Below, one piece after another: positions 13,184 to 24,430 of a stretch of 64,000 nucleotides of DNA (position 1 is the stretch's first letter; every line of letters starts with the position of its first letter). The position numbers and the translations under genes were made by a program. The stretch is from positions 17,586 through 81,585 of the forward strand of contig NZ_LGEN01000015.1 of NCBI RefSeq assembly GCF_001507855.1. The letters run 5' to 3'. Below the pieces are notes generated by a model. The model was not told where the DNA came from and made no database searches. It was given only the letters and a program-made list of their open reading frames with translations. This DNA comes from Halomonas sp. 54_146. Its GTDB lineage: Bacteria > Pseudomonadota > Gammaproteobacteria > Pseudomonadales > Halomonadaceae.

Positions 13184-13306
13184 ATCTTCCTCTCATCAAA
13201 GCGCTGGCGGCACGCTAGCCGCAGCGAGTGGGTAGTGAGTGCTCTTAATACAAACCGCTAATAATTAATACAAACCGCCAATAAAACAAACCGCCAAATA
13301 ACGCAC

Positions 13307-13334
13307 AAAAAAAACCGGCGGTGGGGACCGCCGG
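13307..13334 (-). terminator. Rho-independent terminator
   Basis: Perfect 8-bp stem (ccggcggt/accgccgg) with an 8-A tract on + strand, i.e. U-tract on minus transcript. Confidence 0.9.
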
Positions 13335-13415
13335 AGAATAAAAGCAAGGGATCATTCAAGGGAACACTTACTCAGATAGCCAGCAGCAGGGTTAGTTCAG
13401 ACGTTTTGAAAAAAA
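13307..13415 (-). ncRNA. putative sRNA A (paralogous to sRNA B at 17.7 kb); 5' end approximate
   Basis: 410-nt intergenic gap; minus strand contains TCTGAGTAAGT, TTCCCTTGAATGATCCCTTGCTT, then stem CCGGCGGT-CCCC-ACCGCCGG followed by eight U. Shares both motifs and terminator architecture with 17730-17857. Confidence 0.6.
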
Positions 13416-17182: not shown

Positions 17183-17284
17183 AAAGAGTCGCTGCTACTT
17201 TAGCACCTAGAGACGACTGACCAGATCGCTTTGCTTGCGAGGCCTTTTTGCCATAGCGATGAATACGATGAGCAAGGAGTATCC

Positions 17285-17695
17285 ATGATGAATAGAGCAA
17301 CCCCAAGCACCGTCCGCGATATCATGTCCCGCGACTGCTACCGTGTCTCGCCCAATGCCTCGATTACCACCTTGGCTAAAGGGTTAGCACTGCACCGCCT
17401 ACCCGGTGCACCGGTGGTGGATGATGCTGATCATTTAATTGGCTTTATTTCAGAACAGGATGTCATGGGCCGCGTGTTGGATAGCATTTACCATGATGAC
17501 GAAGCGCCGCTGGTGAAAGAAATGATGCGCCAGGAAGTGCTCAGCGTCTCCCCCAATAAAAGCATTACCGACCTAGCCCAGGAGATGCTCGGCTCTAAAC
17601 CCAAGGTATACCCCGTAGTTGAGCAGCAGCGTTTGGTGGGGATCGTCACCCGACGTGATATTCTGATTGCGCTGCTTACCATACGCCGTCATTAA
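17285..17695 (+). CDS. CBS-domain protein
   Basis: Two CBS repeats (VRDIMSRDCYRVSPNASI... GFISEQDVMGRV; VKEMMRQEVLSVSPNKSI... GIVTRRDILIALL); SD AAGGAG upstream of ATG 17285. Confidence 0.93.
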   Translation: MMNRATPSTVRDIMSRDCYRVSPNASITTLAKGLALHRLPGAPVVDDADHLIGFISEQDVMGRVLDSIYHDDEAPLVKEMMRQEVLSVSPNKSITDLAQEMLGSKPKVYPVVEQQRLVGIVTRRDILIALLTIRRH

Positions 17696-17729: not shown

Positions 17730-17757
17730 AAAAAAAACCGCTACTCGTGAGTAGCGG
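17730..17757 (-). terminator. Rho-independent terminator of putative sRNA B
   Basis: 8-bp perfect stem (ccgctact/agtagcgg), U8 on minus strand. Confidence 0.9.
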
Positions 17758-17857
17758 AAGCAAGGGATCAAAACAATAGAGCCAGAACAACAAGGTTAGC
17801 GACTGCTATCGCGATGTTGTCTGTACTTACTCAGACACGCTATGAAGGAAAAGTTCG
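17730..17857 (-). ncRNA. putative sRNA B (paralogous to sRNA A at 13.3 kb)
   Basis: Minus-strand terminator in a gap between two plus-strand genes; promoter TTGACG-N17-TTTACT; contains hairpin TGTCTG-AGTAAGTA-CAGACA, TGATCCCTTGCTT, terminator CCGCTACT-CACG-AGTAGCGG plus U8. Confidence 0.65.
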
Positions 17858-17863
17858 CAAAAA

Positions 17864-17892
17864 AGTAAAATTTTCGGCCCTAGCGGCGTCAA
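17864..17892 (-). promoter_or_regulatory. putative promoter for sRNA B
   Basis: Minus strand TTGACG (17892-17887), 17-nt spacer, TTTACT (17869-17864). Confidence 0.5.
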
Positions 17893-17944: not shown

Positions 17945-18304
17945 ATGGCTCTCTACCTTTTAGTGTTCGGTGTGTGTGTACTGGTGATAGGTGCGGTAAT
18001 ACTGGTGTTGATGACCTCAAGCACGCCGCGCTACCGCACAGAACCCAAAGACCTCATCGCCTTATTCGATAAAGCACTCAACAGCCAGGTGAGCGAAACC
18101 GAGTGGAACGCGTTGATTGGTTACCCTATCCGTCATAATGAGTATTTAGACGGTATCAGGCGGCGTGCCGCCCACTTAATGGAGCAACATGGCCGACGTT
18201 GGCTAGTTGCCCAGGGTAAGCCACTGCTCAATCAAGAAGGCCAAGCCGAACTGAAAGCCCTTCGCGACCACTTATCCGCTCACACCGCCCTGCGCCAGCA
18301 ATAG
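17945..18304 (+). CDS. small membrane-anchored protein of unknown function
   Basis: 119 aa, single N-terminal TM, preceded by TATAAT at 17896-17901 and aggag SD. Confidence 0.8.
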   Translation: MALYLLVFGVCVLVIGAVILVLMTSSTPRYRTEPKDLIALFDKALNSQVSETEWNALIGYPIRHNEYLDGIRRRAAHLMEQHGRRWLVAQGKPLLNQEGQAELKALRDHLSAHTALRQQ

Positions 18305-18310
18305 TTATTG

Positions 18311-18393
18311 CGGTTCAACAGAGCTTTCGCGGTTCAACAAAGCTTTCGCAGTTCAATAAAGCTTTCGCGGTTCAAGAACGTTATTGCGGTTTA
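18311..18393. repeat. 19-bp tandem repeat, about 4.3 copies
   Basis: cggttcaacagagctttcg / cggttcaacaaagctttcg / cagttcaataaagctttcg / cggttcaagaacgttattg / cggttta. Confidence 0.95.
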
Positions 18394-18404
18394 GGAGATT
18401 TGCT

Positions 18405-19238
18405 ATGCCCAGCATGATTCGTCAAATTCCCTTAGCAAGCGCCACGCAACACCATTCCCATGACTTTCACCAGATTGTGATTACGTTATGTGGCTCATCG
18501 GAATTTGAGATTGAAGGGCTAGGTGGGCGAGTCAATGCGTTTTCGGGCTGTATAGTGCCCGCCAACCACGAACACTACTACTCAGGTTACGGTCATAATC
18601 AGCAATTAATTTTCGACCTTCCAGAAGATGCCCCCGCGCTAACCGGTGAAAACCGCGAGCTGGTCGCCCTGTTTGATGCACCGCGCTTTTTTGGCTTAGA
18701 TAACGCCCTGCGCCACTATTTGGCGTTTATGCAGAGCGAGCTTGCCCAGGAATTTGACACTTCATCCAACTCATTCCAGCAAGAACGCTTAGCCGCCACG
18801 CTCTTAGGCTCATTAAAAGCGCGCTTAGGCGCAACGGCCAGCACCTCCCCGCGGCGTTTAGACTTAACGCGCATTGACCGCTTTATTCGTCACCATCTTG
18901 CTGATGAGCTTCGTGTCGCCGATTTAGCGCGGCTAGCCTGTTTAAGCGAAGCACATTTTTCCGACTGTTTTCGCGCCCAAACCGGGCTATCCCCCTGGCA
19001 ATACGTGAAGCGCCAGCGCCTGCATGCGGCGCGACAATTAATTTTACAAAGCCGCCTGCCTCTTACCGATATCGCTATTCAGACAGGTTTTGCCAACCAA
19101 AGCGCGCTTTCCCATGCTTTTCGCCGCAGCTACGGATTATCGCCGCGCAAATTACGCCAAGCTGATGCACCGCCAGCAGTCATTAACGCCACGAGCACTT
19201 CGATAGGGTCGCTAGCAGGCCAACAAAAACTCTACTAA
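18405..19238 (+). CDS. AraC-family transcriptional regulator (cupin + HTH)
   Basis: HDFHQIVI N-terminal domain, C-terminal AraC HTH (VADLARLACLSEAHFSDCFRAQTGLSPWQYVKRQRL); SD TTAGGAG; upstream of putA. Confidence 0.93.
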   Translation: MPSMIRQIPLASATQHHSHDFHQIVITLCGSSEFEIEGLGGRVNAFSGCIVPANHEHYYSGYGHNQQLIFDLPEDAPALTGENRELVALFDAPRFFGLDNALRHYLAFMQSELAQEFDTSSNSFQQERLAATLLGSLKARLGATASTSPRRLDLTRIDRFIRHHLADELRVADLARLACLSEAHFSDCFRAQTGLSPWQYVKRQRLHAARQLILQSRLPLTDIAIQTGFANQSALSHAFRRSYGLSPRKLRQADAPPAVINATSTSIGSLAGQQKLY

Positions 19239-19388
19239 AGTCGAAAGACGGCTGCGTTTGCCTTGGAATTGACATGTTTTGCCTTGAAAACAGCATACAC
19301 CTGATGCAGCCGCGCTCTACATTCGCTTACTAGCTTGGGCATAGCGCCCTGTTACTTATTCGTTCTGTTCAGACTTTCGGGGGCTTCA

Positions 19389-22300
19389 ATGCTAAATGCC
19401 AACAAAATGCGTGACCCTGCCATCTGGCAAACTGATCTTGACACGCTGATGACGCGGGTTAGCGACCACTATTTAGTGGATGAAAGTGCCTATGTCAGTG
19501 AGCTGATCAAGGTGCTGGATGCCGACCACGATGACTTTGCCCGCATTGAAGCTAACACGGCTGCGCTGGTGCAGGATGTGCGCAAAATGGATACGGCTGT
19601 CGATACTATCGACGAGCTGCTTCAGCAGTACAGTTTGGATACCCACGAAGGGTTGATGTTGATGTGCCTGGCAGAAGCCATGCTGCGCATCCCCGATAAA
19701 GCCACCGCTGATGCGCTGATTGAGGACAAGCTCGGCCCCGCCGATTGGCAGTCCCACGTGGGTAAAAGCGACTCATGGATGGTGAATGCGTCAACGTGGG
19801 GGCTGCTAATGACCGGCCGCGTGTTGAAGCTGGATCACCCCAAAGAGGGTCAGCCTGCCACCTTCATTAATCGCATGGTCAATCGCCTGGGCGAGCCGGT
19901 TATTCGTCGTGCGATGTATGAAGCGATGAAAATTATGGGCAAGCAGTTTGTGCTGGGTCGCGATATTAATGAAGCCCTCAAGCGCTCCAAGCCGCTGTTC
20001 AATAAAGGTTACACCTACTCCTACGATATGTTGGGTGAAGCCGCGCGCACCCGGGATGATGCCAAGCGTTATTTTGATGACTATGCCCGCGCCATTGAGC
20101 AAGTCGGCAAAACGTGCCAAACCTTAAGCGATAAAACTCCAGCGCCCTCGGTCTCCATCAAGCTCTCGGCACTCCACCCCCGCTATGAGTTTGGCCGCCG
20201 CGAGCAGGTACTGGCTGAGCTGGTCGACACCGTTATTAAATTGGTCACCCAAGCCCGCGCGTTAGAGGTAGCGGTGACCATTGACGCTGAAGAAGTGGAC
20301 CGGCTGGAGCTTTCTCTAGAAGTCTTCCGTGCGGTTTATGAAAGCGAGGCCGCCAAAGGTTGGGGGCACTTTGGTTTAGTGGTTCAGGCCTACTCAAAAC
20401 GCGCCCTACCGGTATTGCACTACATCAACCGCTTGGCCGATCAACAGGGTGACGAGATTCCACTGCGCTTGGTCAAAGGTGCCTACTGGGACACCGAAAT
20501 TAAAGAGTCCCAGCAGTTGGGGGTAGACGGCTACCCAGTGTTTACCCGCAAAGCAGGCACCGATGTAGCCTACCTTGCCTGCGCGCAATTTTTGCTTTCC
20601 AACGACACGCATGGCCGCATCTTCCCGCAGTTCGCCACTCACAACGCGCACACCGTGACGACGATCCTAGAGTTCGCCAACCGCGACAGCCGGCCGTTCG
20701 AGTTTCAACGCCTGCACGGCATGGGCGAAGCGCTTTACGACGCCGCGCTTGAGCGCGCACCGAAAGGCACCTACTGCCGCATTTACGCCCCGGTGGGCGC
20801 ACATAAAGATTTGCTGCCCTACCTGGTTCGCCGCCTGCTGGAAAACGGCGCTAACTCCTCGTTCGTGCATCAGTTGGTCGACCCTGACGTGCCCGTAGAG
20901 TCGCTGTGTCAGCACCCGATTGAGACCCTGCGCCAGCAGAAAAGCCTGACCAACACGAATATTCCGCTACCCACCGATATTTATGGCCCTAAGCGTCGTA
21001 ATTCCCGCGGGGTAAACCTGAACATTCGCAGCCACTACTACCCGCTGATGGAGAAGATGGCCGCATTTATGGATAAGCAATACCCCGCCAAGCCGCTGCT
21101 GGCCTTTGATGTCGCCGACGACGCCGCTAATACCCATAGCGTCACCAGCCCTTATGACCGCCGCCAAACCGTGGGTAGCGTGCAGTGGACCAGCAAAGAG
21201 CAAGCGGCCAAGGCGCTGGATGCCGCCTGGGCCGCGTTCCCCCGCTGGGATGCTACGCCGGTGGCCGAACGCGCCGCCATTGTGCGTCGCCTGGGCGATT
21301 TGATGGAAGAACATATGCCAGAGCTGATGGCACTCTGCTCACGTGAAGGCGGCAAGCTACTCACCGATGGCGTGGATGAGATCAAAGAAGCCGTCGACTT
21401 CTGCCGCTTCTACGCCATGCGCGCAGAAGAAGAGTTCAGCGAAGCGATAGTATTGCCCGGCCCCACCGGTGAATCCAACCGTTTGATGATGGGTGGCAAA
21501 GGCGTATTCGCGGCCATTAGTCCCTGGAACTTCCCGGTGGCAATCTTCTGCGGCCAGGTGGTGGCGGCGGCGGTGGCGGGTAATACCGTGCTGGCTAAAC
21601 CAGCGGAGCAAACCTCGATTGTCGCCCACCGCGTGATTGAGCTGCTGTATCAAGCGGGTATGCCCCGCGATGTGGTGCAGCTACTGCCTGGTGATGGCCC
21701 GACGGTGGGCAGCGTGTTGACCTCTGACCCGCGCATTACCGGGGTGGTATTTACCGGCGGCACCGATACCGCACAGATTATCAACCGCGCCCTGGCCGCC
21801 CGTGAAAACGCCCCGCTGCCCACGTTAATCGCTGAAACCGGCGGCATGAACGCCATGATTGTCGACTCCACCGCCCTGCCCGAGCAGGTCGTGGTGGATG
21901 TGGTTCAATCCGCCTTCCAGAGCGCTGGCCAGCGCTGTTCGGCGCTTCGTGTTCTGTATCTACAGGACGATGTCGCTGACCGGGTCATTGAGATCCTCAA
22001 GGGTGCCATGAATGAGCTACGCATTGGCGACCCACGTGAGTTAGGCACCGATGTAGGCCCGGTTATCGACGAAGATGCCCGCAAAGGCTTGTTGGAACAC
22101 ATCGAAAAACTCAAGGCTGAGAAACGCCTAGTAGCGGAAACACCGATGGCGGCTGAACACACTCAGGACGGCACCTTTGTCGCGCCTGTCGCCTTCACGA
22201 TCGACAGCATCAATGCCCTTTCCCGCGAGCAGTTCGGCCCCGTGCTACATATCGTGCGCTACAAAGCCAGCGAGCTTGATAAGGTCATCAACGATATCAA

Positions 22301-22580
22301 CGGTCGCAACTACGGCCTGACGTTTGGCGTGCATAGCCGGAATGAATCGTTTGCCGCTGAAATAGCGCAGAGAATGCGCGTCGGTAACGTGTACATCAAC
22401 CGCAATATTATTGGGGCAGTGGTTGGCGTACAGCCGTTTGGTGGTCAAGGCCTTTCAGGCACTGGCCCCAAAGCCGGTGGCCCTCACTACCTGCAGCGCT
22501 TTGTGACCGAGAAAACCATTACTAATAACACCGCTGCTCTAGGCGGGAACGCGTCGCTGTTGGCGCTTGGTGATGAGTGA
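19389..22580 (+). CDS. putA: bifunctional proline dehydrogenase / L-glutamate gamma-semialdehyde dehydrogenase
   Basis: PRODH domain (KLSALHPRYE, RLVKGAYWDTEIK) plus ALDH domain (ISPWNFPVAIF, AETGGMNAMIVDS, GQRCSALRVL). Confidence 0.98.
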   Translation: MLNANKMRDPAIWQTDLDTLMTRVSDHYLVDESAYVSELIKVLDADHDDFARIEANTAALVQDVRKMDTAVDTIDELLQQYSLDTHEGLMLMCLAEAMLRIPDKATADALIEDKLGPADWQSHVGKSDSWMVNASTWGLLMTGRVLKLDHPKEGQPATFINRMVNRLGEPVIRRAMYEAMKIMGKQFVLGRDINEALKRSKPLFNKGYTYSYDMLGEAARTRDDAKRYFDDYARAIEQVGKTCQTLSDKTPAPSVSIKLSALHPRYEFGRREQVLAELVDTVIKLVTQARALEVAVTIDAEEVDRLELSLEVFRAVYESEAAKGWGHFGLVVQAYSKRALPVLHYINRLADQQGDEIPLRLVKGAYWDTEIKESQQLGVDGYPVFTRKAGTDVAYLACAQFLLSNDTHGRIFPQFATHNAHTVTTILEFANRDSRPFEFQRLHGMGEALYDAALERAPKGTYCRIYAPVGAHKDLLPYLVRRLLENGANSSFVHQLVDPDVPVESLCQHPIETLRQQKSLTNTNIPLPTDIYGPKRRNSRGVNLNIRSHYYPLMEKMAAFMDKQYPAKPLLAFDVADDAANTHSVTSPYDRRQTVGSVQWTSKEQAAKALDAAWAAFPRWDATPVAERAAIVRRLGDLMEEHMPELMALCSREGGKLLTDGVDEIKEAVDFCRFYAMRAEEEFSEAIVLPGPTGESNRLMMGGKGVFAAISPWNFPVAIFCGQVVAAAVAGNTVLAKPAEQTSIVAHRVIELLYQAGMPRDVVQLLPGDGPTVGSVLTSDPRITGVVFTGGTDTAQIINRALAARENAPLPTLIAETGGMNAMIVDSTALPEQVVVDVVQSAFQSAGQRCSALRVLYLQDDVADRVIEILKGAMNELRIGDPRELGTDVGPVIDEDARKGLLEHIEKLKAEKRLVAETPMAAEHTQDGTFVAPVAFTIDSINALSREQFGPVLHIVRYKASELDKVINDINGRNYGLTFGVHSRNESFAAEIAQRMRVGNVYINRNIIGAVVGVQPFGGQGLSGTGPKAGGPHYLQRFVTEKTITNNTAALGGNASLLALGDE

Positions 22581-22629
22581 GACGCTCATCAACATCATTA
22601 ACCTGAACTCCTGAACAGGGAACCCTCTC

Positions 22630-22776
22630 ATGGTCGAAAACAATATAGGGATTGCCATTACATTTGCCGCGTACCTGCTGCTGACGCTTGGCATTGGGGT
22701 CGTTGCTTATCAACGCACTAACGCCTTGCCTGGCTATCGCTTAGGCGGCGCTTATGGCGTTTATAGAGGCCAGTAA
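22630..22776 (+). CDS. 48-aa ORF resembling N-terminal TM1 of sodium:solute symporters (remnant or standalone small membrane protein)
   Basis: Own translation MVENNIGIAITFAAYLLLTLGIGVVAYQRTNALPGYRLGGAYGVYRGQ*; aligns by eye with PutP start (I..FGYFALMIAIGVYAMR...DYMLGG). Below the ORF-track size cut-off. Confidence 0.6.
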   Translation: MVENNIGIAITFAAYLLLTLGIGVVAYQRTNALPGYRLGGAYGVYRGQ

Positions 22777-22865
22777 CATCAGTAAGAAAAGGGGCAAATA
22801 AATACAAGACAGCGACACTACCGGATTCTGCACGGTAAACCCGCTGAACCTTTCGGAGCTAGGGC

Positions 22866-22903
22866 GGTACGAAAAGTCGGCAATCGCAGGCATTTTTCGT
22901 ACC
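22866..22903. promoter_or_regulatory. inverted repeat upstream of putP
   Basis: Perfect 10-bp arms ggtacgaaaa (22866-22875) and ttttcgtacc (22894-22903), 18-nt spacer. Confidence 0.6.
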
Positions 22904-22939
22904 AAGCTTAGTCCCGTTCTAACGAACTGGAGAAATTTC

Positions 22940-24430
22940 ATGGCTACTGGTGTTTGGATTAGCTTATTTGGTTACTTTGCGCTGATGATCGCCATAGGCG
23001 TTTACGCCATGCGCAAATCCACGTCTTCATCTGAAGATTACATGTTGGGTGGCCGGACTCTCAGCCCGCAAGTGGCAGCCCTTTCGGCCGGCGCTTCGGA
23101 TATGAGTGGCTGGCTGCTGCTAGGTTTACCCGGGGCGATGTTCGTCTCAGGCCTGGGGTCAGCCTGGATTGGTATCGGCCTGCTGGTGGGTGCCCTGTTC
23201 AACTGGATTTTGGTCGCACCGCGCCTTCGTGAACAGACGATTCACTACGGCAATGCGATTACCATTCCGGCTTTCCTAGCCAACCGGTTCCCAACGCGGG
23301 CGCTGTCCCTGCGCACGGTATCCGCCATTGTTATCGTTATTTTCTTCGCCGTTTATACCGCCTCAGGCTTAGTGGCTGGCGGCAAGTTGTTTGAAAGCGC
23401 GTTTACCGGCGTTTACAACTTTGGTGATATGAGCAACTACGCTATGGGTGTCATGATCACACTCGGCGTGGTGCTTATTTACACCGTTGTTGGCGGTTTC
23501 CTGGCCGTAAGCATGACGGATTTCGTACAAGGCTGCATCATGATGCTCGCCCTGATCATCATGCCTGCGGTGGTATTGTTTGGCGAAGGTGGCGGCGGTT
23601 TCACCCAGGCGTCACAAACCCTCAATGAAGTCGATCCTACGCTGTTATCCTGGACGTCAGGGCTCACCTTTATAGGCTGGCTGTCTGCGGTTACCTGGGG
23701 GCTGGGCTATTTCGGGCAGCCGCATATTATTGTGCGCTTTATGGCGATCCGCTCACAGAAAGATGTGCCTACTGCCCGCAACATTGGCATGGCCTGGATG
23801 CTTATATCCCTGATTGGTGCCGTTTCTCTGGGTATATTTGGCCGGGCCTATGCCATTCGTAATGGTTTGGATGTTCAGGACCCGGAAACCATCTTTATTA
23901 TCCTAGCGAATCTGTTGTTCCATCCGCTGATCACTGGCTTCCTTTATGCGGCACTGCTGGCGGCCATCATGAGTACCATTTCTAGTCAGCTTCTAGTGTC
24001 GTCTTCATCACTGACGGAAGACTTCTATCGCCTGTTCTTGCACAAGAACGCAACCGAGCAACAGAGTGTGGCCGTAGGCCGTGTCTGCGTCGTGCTGGTA
24101 GGCGTTGTGGCTGCTTTTATTGCCTCTGATGAAAACTCTCAGGTGCTTGGCTTAGTCAGTAACGCCTGGGCCGGCTTCGGTGCAGCGTTTGGGCCGCTGA
24201 TCATTCTGTCGCTGATGTGGCCACGCACCAACGGCAATGGTGCTATCGCGGGCATGGTGGTGGGTGCTGCTACCGTTATGATCTGGATCTCAATGGGCTG
24301 GAACGGTGAATTCATGGGTGGTCCCGGTGTGTACGAGATTATTCCTGGCTTCATCGCGTCCTTCATTGCCATCATGGTGGTGAGCAGTGTGACTGCCGAT
24401 ACCGGTGAATATCAGCATATCGATCGCTAA
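22940..24430 (+). CDS. putP: sodium/proline symporter
   Basis: SSS family: DYMLGGRTLSPQVAALSAGASDMSGWLLLGLPGAMF; adjacent to putA. Confidence 0.97.
   Translation: MATGVWISLFGYFALMIAIGVYAMRKSTSSSEDYMLGGRTLSPQVAALSAGASDMSGWLLLGLPGAMFVSGLGSAWIGIGLLVGALFNWILVAPRLREQTIHYGNAITIPAFLANRFPTRALSLRTVSAIVIVIFFAVYTASGLVAGGKLFESAFTGVYNFGDMSNYAMGVMITLGVVLIYTVVGGFLAVSMTDFVQGCIMMLALIIMPAVVLFGEGGGGFTQASQTLNEVDPTLLSWTSGLTFIGWLSAVTWGLGYFGQPHIIVRFMAIRSQKDVPTARNIGMAWMLISLIGAVSLGIFGRAYAIRNGLDVQDPETIFIILANLLFHPLITGFLYAALLAAIMSTISSQLLVSSSSLTEDFYRLFLHKNATEQQSVAVGRVCVVLVGVVAAFIASDENSQVLGLVSNAWAGFGAAFGPLIILSLMWPRTNGNGAIAGMVVGAATVMIWISMGWNGEFMGGPGVYEIIPGFIASFIAIMVVSSVTADTGEYQHIDR

Follow-up and report, generated by a model that had tools for sequence, protein, structure and literature searches.

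Porin-repressing small RNAs in described systems and a putative one at the present locus

The closest described counterparts of the locus analysed here are small RNAs that act on porin mRNAs, among them the envelope-stress sRNAs RybB, MicA and VrrA. RybB and MicA are transcribed from sigma-E-type promoters (PMC1804206), and both are short intergenic RNAs that end in a terminator. RybB is described as pairing within a porin coding sequence, its site on ompD lying within a five-codon window, and MicC also pairs within the coding sequence of ompD (PMC4911921). In Vibrio cholerae, VrrA and MicV are two sigma-E-activated sRNAs with a common seed (PMC7602753), while ErsA of Pseudomonas aeruginosa is driven by AlgU (sigma-22), represses the porin mRNA oprD and also regulates algC and amrZ (PMC5819304). 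RybB and MicA represent two RNAs in one genome that target the mRNAs of outer-membrane proteins. The seed of RybB lies at its 5' end, and the site of MicC on ompD is found deeper in the coding sequence, at codons 23-26.

The window, that is, the whole stretch of 64,000 nucleotides that was analysed, contains two predicted minus-strand sRNAs, here called A and B. B resembles RybB and MicA in its promoter type and in being a short intergenic RNA with a terminator, and the occurrence of A and B in one genome matches the two RNAs of that pair, the outer-membrane target of B being a prediction. The predicted site of B also falls within a porin coding sequence, as do those of RybB and MicC; it covers codons 6-11 and thus lies at or past the five-codon window for initiation block. 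Unlike RybB and MicA, B would carry its seed inside a 5' stem rather than at a bare 5' end, and it possesses an additional segment predicted to pair with the porin leader. A and B share a sequence block, which recalls the common seed of VrrA and MicV; in contrast to that seed, the block is not the part predicted to pair with the porin coding sequence, it is missing from B outside the genus, and the two RNAs have no Rfam match. The likeness to ErsA, drawn from its description, concerns AlgU-type control and a porin target, which in B is predicted to be a porin of the Porin_4 family.

The traits of sigma-E-dependent, porin-repressing sRNAs that are present in B and its genome comprise the promoter type, a gene for the sigma factor, porin complementarity and a terminator with a U tail. 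The best reading of these features is that B forms a family of its own within a known type of sRNA, a predicted envelope-stress sRNA that represses a porin, as do RybB, MicA and VrrA. Rfam 15 gave no matches in the window, neither A nor B being represented; the best match near B under lax settings scored 17.2 bits, where the threshold is 57, and belonged to an unrelated microRNA family. At the level of titles and the opening parts of abstracts, the open-licence papers listed yielded no report of RNA B and no Halomonas sRNA with a target.

Location and distribution of RNA B and RNA A

A minus-strand sRNA gene is predicted at about 17730-17826, and the prediction is well supported. The transcript and its terminator are as follows.

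17730..17826, minus strand: transcript of sRNA B, with a start predicted 5-7 nt past the -10 element (about 17824-17826) and an end predicted in the T run
17730..17757, minus strand: intrinsic terminator of B, with its stem at 17738-17757

With these ends, the RNA would be about 96 nt long. The initial annotation had described a minus-directed terminator between two plus-strand genes, and this arrangement was confirmed: the stem, read from 17757 to 17738, is followed by eight T, and the flanking reading frames (17231-17695 and 17945-18304) are both on the plus strand. The frame at 17231-17695 encodes a CBS-domain protein (PF00571), whose 3' end is faced by the terminator of B at a distance of about 35 nt. 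The proposed sRNA gene itself also stood, because B is kept in 59 of 61 genomes of the same genus, 7 of 9 terminator pairs have changed on both sides, and the promoter is fixed.

Searches of 97 relatives identified B in 59, all within the 61 same-genus genomes (its own included); the two genomes of the genus with no match, G018 and G042, are 88% and 66% complete. RNA A was found in 39 of 60 relatives, corresponding to all 39 same-genus genomes searched. A search of the Halomonadaceae with covariance models, as suggested in the initial annotation, detected A (model R1) in 184 of 201 genomes and 19 of 24 genera, and B (model R2) in 116 of 201 genomes and 8 of 24 genera. Across the order, R1 matched 14 of 293 genomes, 12 inside the family and two weak ones outside it. 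An exact 20-mer of A was present at no fewer than 119 loci. Going by their names, the 80 loci listed belong to Halomonas, Vreelandella, Billgrantia, Salinicola, Chromohalobacter, Kushneria, Cobetia and other Halomonadaceae, except for one placed no deeper than Gammaproteobacteria; these names are a sample of the species that carry A. Model R2 was run on 80 of the 119 loci. R1 also gave two matches per genome in G015, G029 and the genera g40 and g51, among others, and three in some genomes of g40; these extra matches may be additional copies or relatives of RNA A.

Promoter type and predicted start of RNA B

Upstream of B, the following promoter elements were observed.

17851..17856, minus strand: -35 element GAACTT of a sigma-E/AlgU-type promoter
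17831..17835, minus strand: -10 element TCTGA, separated from the -35 element by a 15-nt spacer

GAACTT is retained in 58 of the 59 same-genus copies, the exception being L012, with GAACTA; it is also invariant in the 54 rows of alignment A2, which were extracted on GAACTT. For the promoter count, 56 of the 59 copies were used, and TCTGA or TCAGA occupies a fixed position in 52 of these 56 rows. The AlgU consensus is given as GAACTT-N16/17-TCtgA (PMC10651043), so the spacer of B is one nucleotide shorter, and the sigma-E motifs at rybB and micA are given as GGAACTTTT and GTCAAA (PMC1804206). Judged by its elements, GAACTT-N15-TC(T/A)GA is a promoter of the sigma-E/AlgU type. The genome encodes an RpoE equivalog (TIGR02939, 305 bits against a cut-off of 236). 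GAACTT-N14-16-TCWGA is not enriched, the genome having 4 such sites and the control reading 6, and inspection by eye of the region upstream of rpoE revealed a partial match alone, GAACTA-N17-TCAGC.

The sigma-70 promoter initially assigned to B, TTGACG-N17-TTTACT, was rejected. Of 56 relatives, 7 have TTGAC within 45 bases upstream of GAACTT, on which their rows were aligned, 6 have TTGAC-N-TTTACT, and a consensus scan listed no sigma-70-like site upstream of B. Since GAACTT-N15-TC(T/A)GA is conserved in relatives, the start of B is expected near 17825 and not near 17857, the position proposed earlier, which adjoins the -35 element.

Terminator and folding of RNA B

The folding of B was assessed in alignment A2, which contains 54 of the 59 rows; three rows failed the extraction pattern and two were omitted for long inserts. 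Over the whole structure 98.3% of cells are paired, and the covariation exceeds that of 500 of 500 shuffles, mostly owing to the terminator. Ahead of the terminator, a second stem was identified.

17782..17824, minus strand: 5' stem of B, ACAGACAACA with UGUUGUUCUG (A2 columns 37-42/91-96), which holds the porin-complementary seed 1

In this stem 96.5% of cells are paired, with GU, GC and AU variants, and the window's own copy of B folds in the same way; within A2, no cell of the stem has changed on both sides relative to the commonest pair, GU. A hairpin of TGTCTG with CAGACA, proposed in the initial annotation, was discarded because it pairs no better than shuffled columns: 74 of 500 column shuffles reach its covariation, and at one pair position 13 of 52 cells fail to pair. 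The left arm of this hairpin also runs across the -10 element of the sigma-E/AlgU-type promoter. In L053-L056 and L060, copies of B carry about 20-40 added bases between the arms of the 5' stem, the arms being kept, as if the loop had grown.

RNA A and its relationship to RNA B

RNA A and the block that it shares with B comprise the following features.

13309..13367, minus strand: transcript of sRNA A, from its predicted start
13393..13398, minus strand: -35 element GAACTA of A
13372..13376, minus strand: -10 element TCTGA of A, after a 16-nt spacer
13342..13353, minus strand: GATCCCTTGCTT block of A
17758..17769, minus strand: GATCCCTTGCTT block of B

Among the 119 matches listed, GAAC is present in 111 and TCAGA, TCTGA or TCAAA in 112, with the two elements at one spacing in 112. 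These elements give A, like B, a promoter of the AlgU consensus type, similar to the sigma-E motifs found at rybB and micA. A would be about 58 nt long between its predicted ends, with no conserved structure shown ahead of its terminator, and contains two copies of CCCUUG just past the predicted start. The segment GTGTTCCCTTGAATGATCCCTTGC is nearly invariant in the 119 matches listed, whose loci were selected by 20 bases of this very segment; across 30 same-genus rows it varies in its first bases only, this alignment covering 30 of 39 same-genus matches and leaving out the nine that had no loci. Compared with porin starts, A showed no convincing conserved site.

The initial annotation had presented B as the second member of a family with A. 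The motifs TGATCCCTTGCTT and TCTGAGTAAGT are indeed present in both RNAs, and the 3.56-Mb genome has just one further copy of the GATCCCTTGCTT of A, the one in B, with none in the control reading; the block is therefore not a generic repeat. Model R1, built from A without B, ranks B second in the window (E 0.0018), with only the promoter, the block and the terminator aligning. The common promoter class, the 12-nt block, the terminator placement and the R1 match lend the proposal partial support, while the distribution of the block speaks against common membership. We compared 37 sequences of B, 17 from A-bearing loci and 20 from further genomes, 19 of the latter belonging to other genera. By eye, GATCCCTTGCTT is present in 0 of these 19, GCAGTCGC in 18, GAT(A/G)GCAGTCGC in 14 and TCGATC in 16. 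The porin-complementary segments thus appear to form the old core of B, the A-shared block being a feature of the window's genus. Since B outside the genus retains this core but lacks the block, the two RNAs are not regarded as one duplicated family; they look like two different sRNAs of one regulon. As for the comparison with PrrF1/2, a pair marked by Fur control and iron-protein mRNA targets, no observation here relates to iron, and the promoter is of a different type.

Complementarity of RNA B to porin mRNA

Two segments of B are complementary to the 5' region of the main porin mRNA.

17796..17811, minus strand: seed 1, CGAUAGCAGUCGCUAA, with its complement at porin codons 6-11
17766..17778, minus strand: seed 2, UAUUGUUUUGAUC, with its complement at -35 to -23 in the porin 5' leader

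The porin comparisons cover eight hand-chosen genomes, all of one genus, in which 20 Porin_4 genes were matched and 17 tested, L335, L336 and L338 being dropped as below the family cut-off. Seed 1 shows 12-17 nt of perfect complementarity to the main porin in 8/8 genomes, at a constant position (+15 or +16), including a perfect 16-nt match to the porin of its own genome, L321. Dinucleotide-shuffled B gave a mean of 6.6-8.0 nt and a maximum of 14 (200 shuffles per genome), and B matches the window's 168 candidate start regions over 10 nt at best. In each of the eight genomes, one porin begins with ATGAAAAA(A/G)ACACTTTTAGCGACTGC. The paralogous porins of the same genomes have 6-11 nt of complementarity; they include L324, which encodes a nearly identical MKKTLLATA start, yet by other codons. 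In the sRNA itself, seed 1 lies partly within a predicted small hairpin.

Sequence differences at this site were also compared between the two partners. G041 combines GATGGC in the sRNA with GCC in the porin, whereas most others have GATAGC with GCT, a synonymous change in the porin; the change is matched on both sides but represents a single event. The porin of G038 differs by one base, which leaves 12 nt plus an apparent G-U pair, and that of G023 differs by one edge base, which leaves 14 nt.

Seed 2 forms 13 contiguous pairs, 11 of them Watson-Crick, with GAUCGAAACAGUA in the leader of its own porin, a match equalled in 0 of 300 shuffles. Across the eight genomes, the leader site was matched by 0, 6, 14, 2 and 0 of 300 shuffles in five and was unremarkable in the other three (56, 50 and 40 of 300). 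G037 and G038 carry a matched variant, with GATCAAAA in the leader and TTTTGATC in the sRNA in place of GATCGAAA elsewhere. The two sites of B follow each other in the order of an antiparallel duplex, with the Shine-Dalgarno region and the start codon of the porin between them. As a separate observation, an 11-nt complement of B, UUUUUCGAUCC with GGATCGAAAAA, was found immediately upstream of the start codon of L333, a porin paralogue in G026, whose leader is a possible second porin target of the linker segment.

Targets were also sought for the block shared with A. A single long target was rejected: AGCAAGGGATCA, allowing at most one mismatch, matched 10 places besides A and B, of which none stands clearly ahead of a start codon and two (L098 and L104) resemble 5S rRNA by eye. 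In five genomes, CAAGGGAW-N3-9-ATG gave 83 matches against 36 in the control reading; since AAGGGA resembles a Shine-Dalgarno sequence, this excess was not counted as evidence. Starts that recurred in at least two genomes belonged to btuB, asmA, a chemoreceptor gene and serS. The block of B and A has a 10-nt complement in the Shine-Dalgarno region of btuB (-15) in two genomes, a candidate preselected by that same pattern. The receptor is BtuB-like, its best NCBIfam match being TIGR01779 at a score below the whole-protein cut-off, with the protein cut by the locus end. We regard btuB as a weak candidate target of the shared block.

Proposed mechanism and alternative explanations

We consider it likely that B is an RpoE/AlgU-driven, trans-acting sRNA of about 96 nt that pairs with and silences the main porin mRNA. 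Its conservation, promoter type, terminator and porin complementarity were computed directly. We infer that B is transcribed, depends on sigma-E, uses Hfq and acts on the porin by repression. Envelope stress would free RpoE, which would transcribe A and B, with B ending at its intrinsic terminator. CGAUAGCAGUCGCUAA, held in the 5' stem, would pair with porin codons 6-11, and UAUUGUUUUGAUC in the linker with the 5' leader about 23-35 nt upstream of the start codon. Pairing on both flanks of the ribosome-binding site would block the start of translation and/or expose the porin mRNA to decay, and porin synthesis would halt as misfolded outer-membrane protein accumulates. The A-shared block may in addition direct both RNAs to further outer-membrane mRNAs, such as btuB.

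Two other explanations centre on that block. A and B could be paralogous copies with house-keeping (sigma-70) promoters, acting through GATCCCTTGCTT only, as might be expected from a 12-nt block unique to the two RNAs and from a model of A that finds B with an E value of 0.0018. This appears quite unlikely, given that TTGAC-N-TTTACT occurs in 6 of 56 relatives, that B outside the genus has the block in 0 of 19 sequences and the porin-pairing core in 18 of 19, and that A and B differ in length and structure. B could also depend on sigma-E and still act mainly on other mRNAs through its CCCUUG block, such as those of TonB-dependent receptors like btuB, with the porin as a secondary target. The 10-nt complement at btuB Shine-Dalgarno regions in two genomes points in this direction, as does the position of the block in the part of A most conserved across the family; btuB, however, was found by that very pattern, the Shine-Dalgarno-like AAGGGA biases the test, and B of other genera loses the block, which leaves a main action on such mRNAs unlikely.

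The porin match itself might be a relic, B having arisen from the porin 5' end as an inverted copy and persisting for a different reason, or it might be a chance effect of conserved sequence. Two segments of B do have counterparts in the 5' region of the porin, and in antisense order, but the matched changes in G041 and in G037/G038 point to pairing that has been kept, and shuffled B averages only 6.6-8.0 nt; we therefore consider this explanation highly improbable. Still less probable is a locus with no trans-acting RNA, where the terminator would serve read-through transcription or antisense control of the CBS-domain gene. The terminator does face the 3' end of that gene, some 35 nt away, whereas a conserved promoter stands about 75 nt ahead of the terminator stem, the transcript is expected to stop short of the CBS reading frame, and the conserved core matches the porin.

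With B as a sigma-E-dependent repressor of the main porin, a broader picture may be put forward tentatively, at slightly less than even confidence: the Halomonadaceae would own an envelope-stress sRNA pair, with no sequence match to the pairs of enterobacteria and vibrios, in which B grips the porin mRNA at the leader and at codons 6-11, on either side of the ribosome-binding site, and sRNA and porin would co-evolve, constraining synonymous codons of the signal peptide. If true, this would give these salt-tolerant bacteria, some of which serve bioplastic production, a stress regulon for which regulator, promoter, target and base pairs are all predicted. It would also be a further case, after enterobacteria, vibrios and Pseudomonas, of envelope stress silencing outer-membrane proteins by sRNA.

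Sequence surroundings of the two loci

The stretch 13245-13297, just downstream of the terminator of A, contains a pair of short tandem repeats that overlap each other and carry ACAAACCGCC. Next to B, the 119-aa reading frame at 17945-18304 had no Pfam match. Between this frame and a gene for an AraC-family regulator, a 19-bp unit (GCGGTTCAACAAAGCTTTC) is repeated 3.5 times at 18310-18375. The region 18384-24430 beside B encodes this AraC-family regulator, a PutA-like proline dehydrogenase/aldehyde dehydrogenase and a sodium:solute symporter, and is likely a cluster for proline use.
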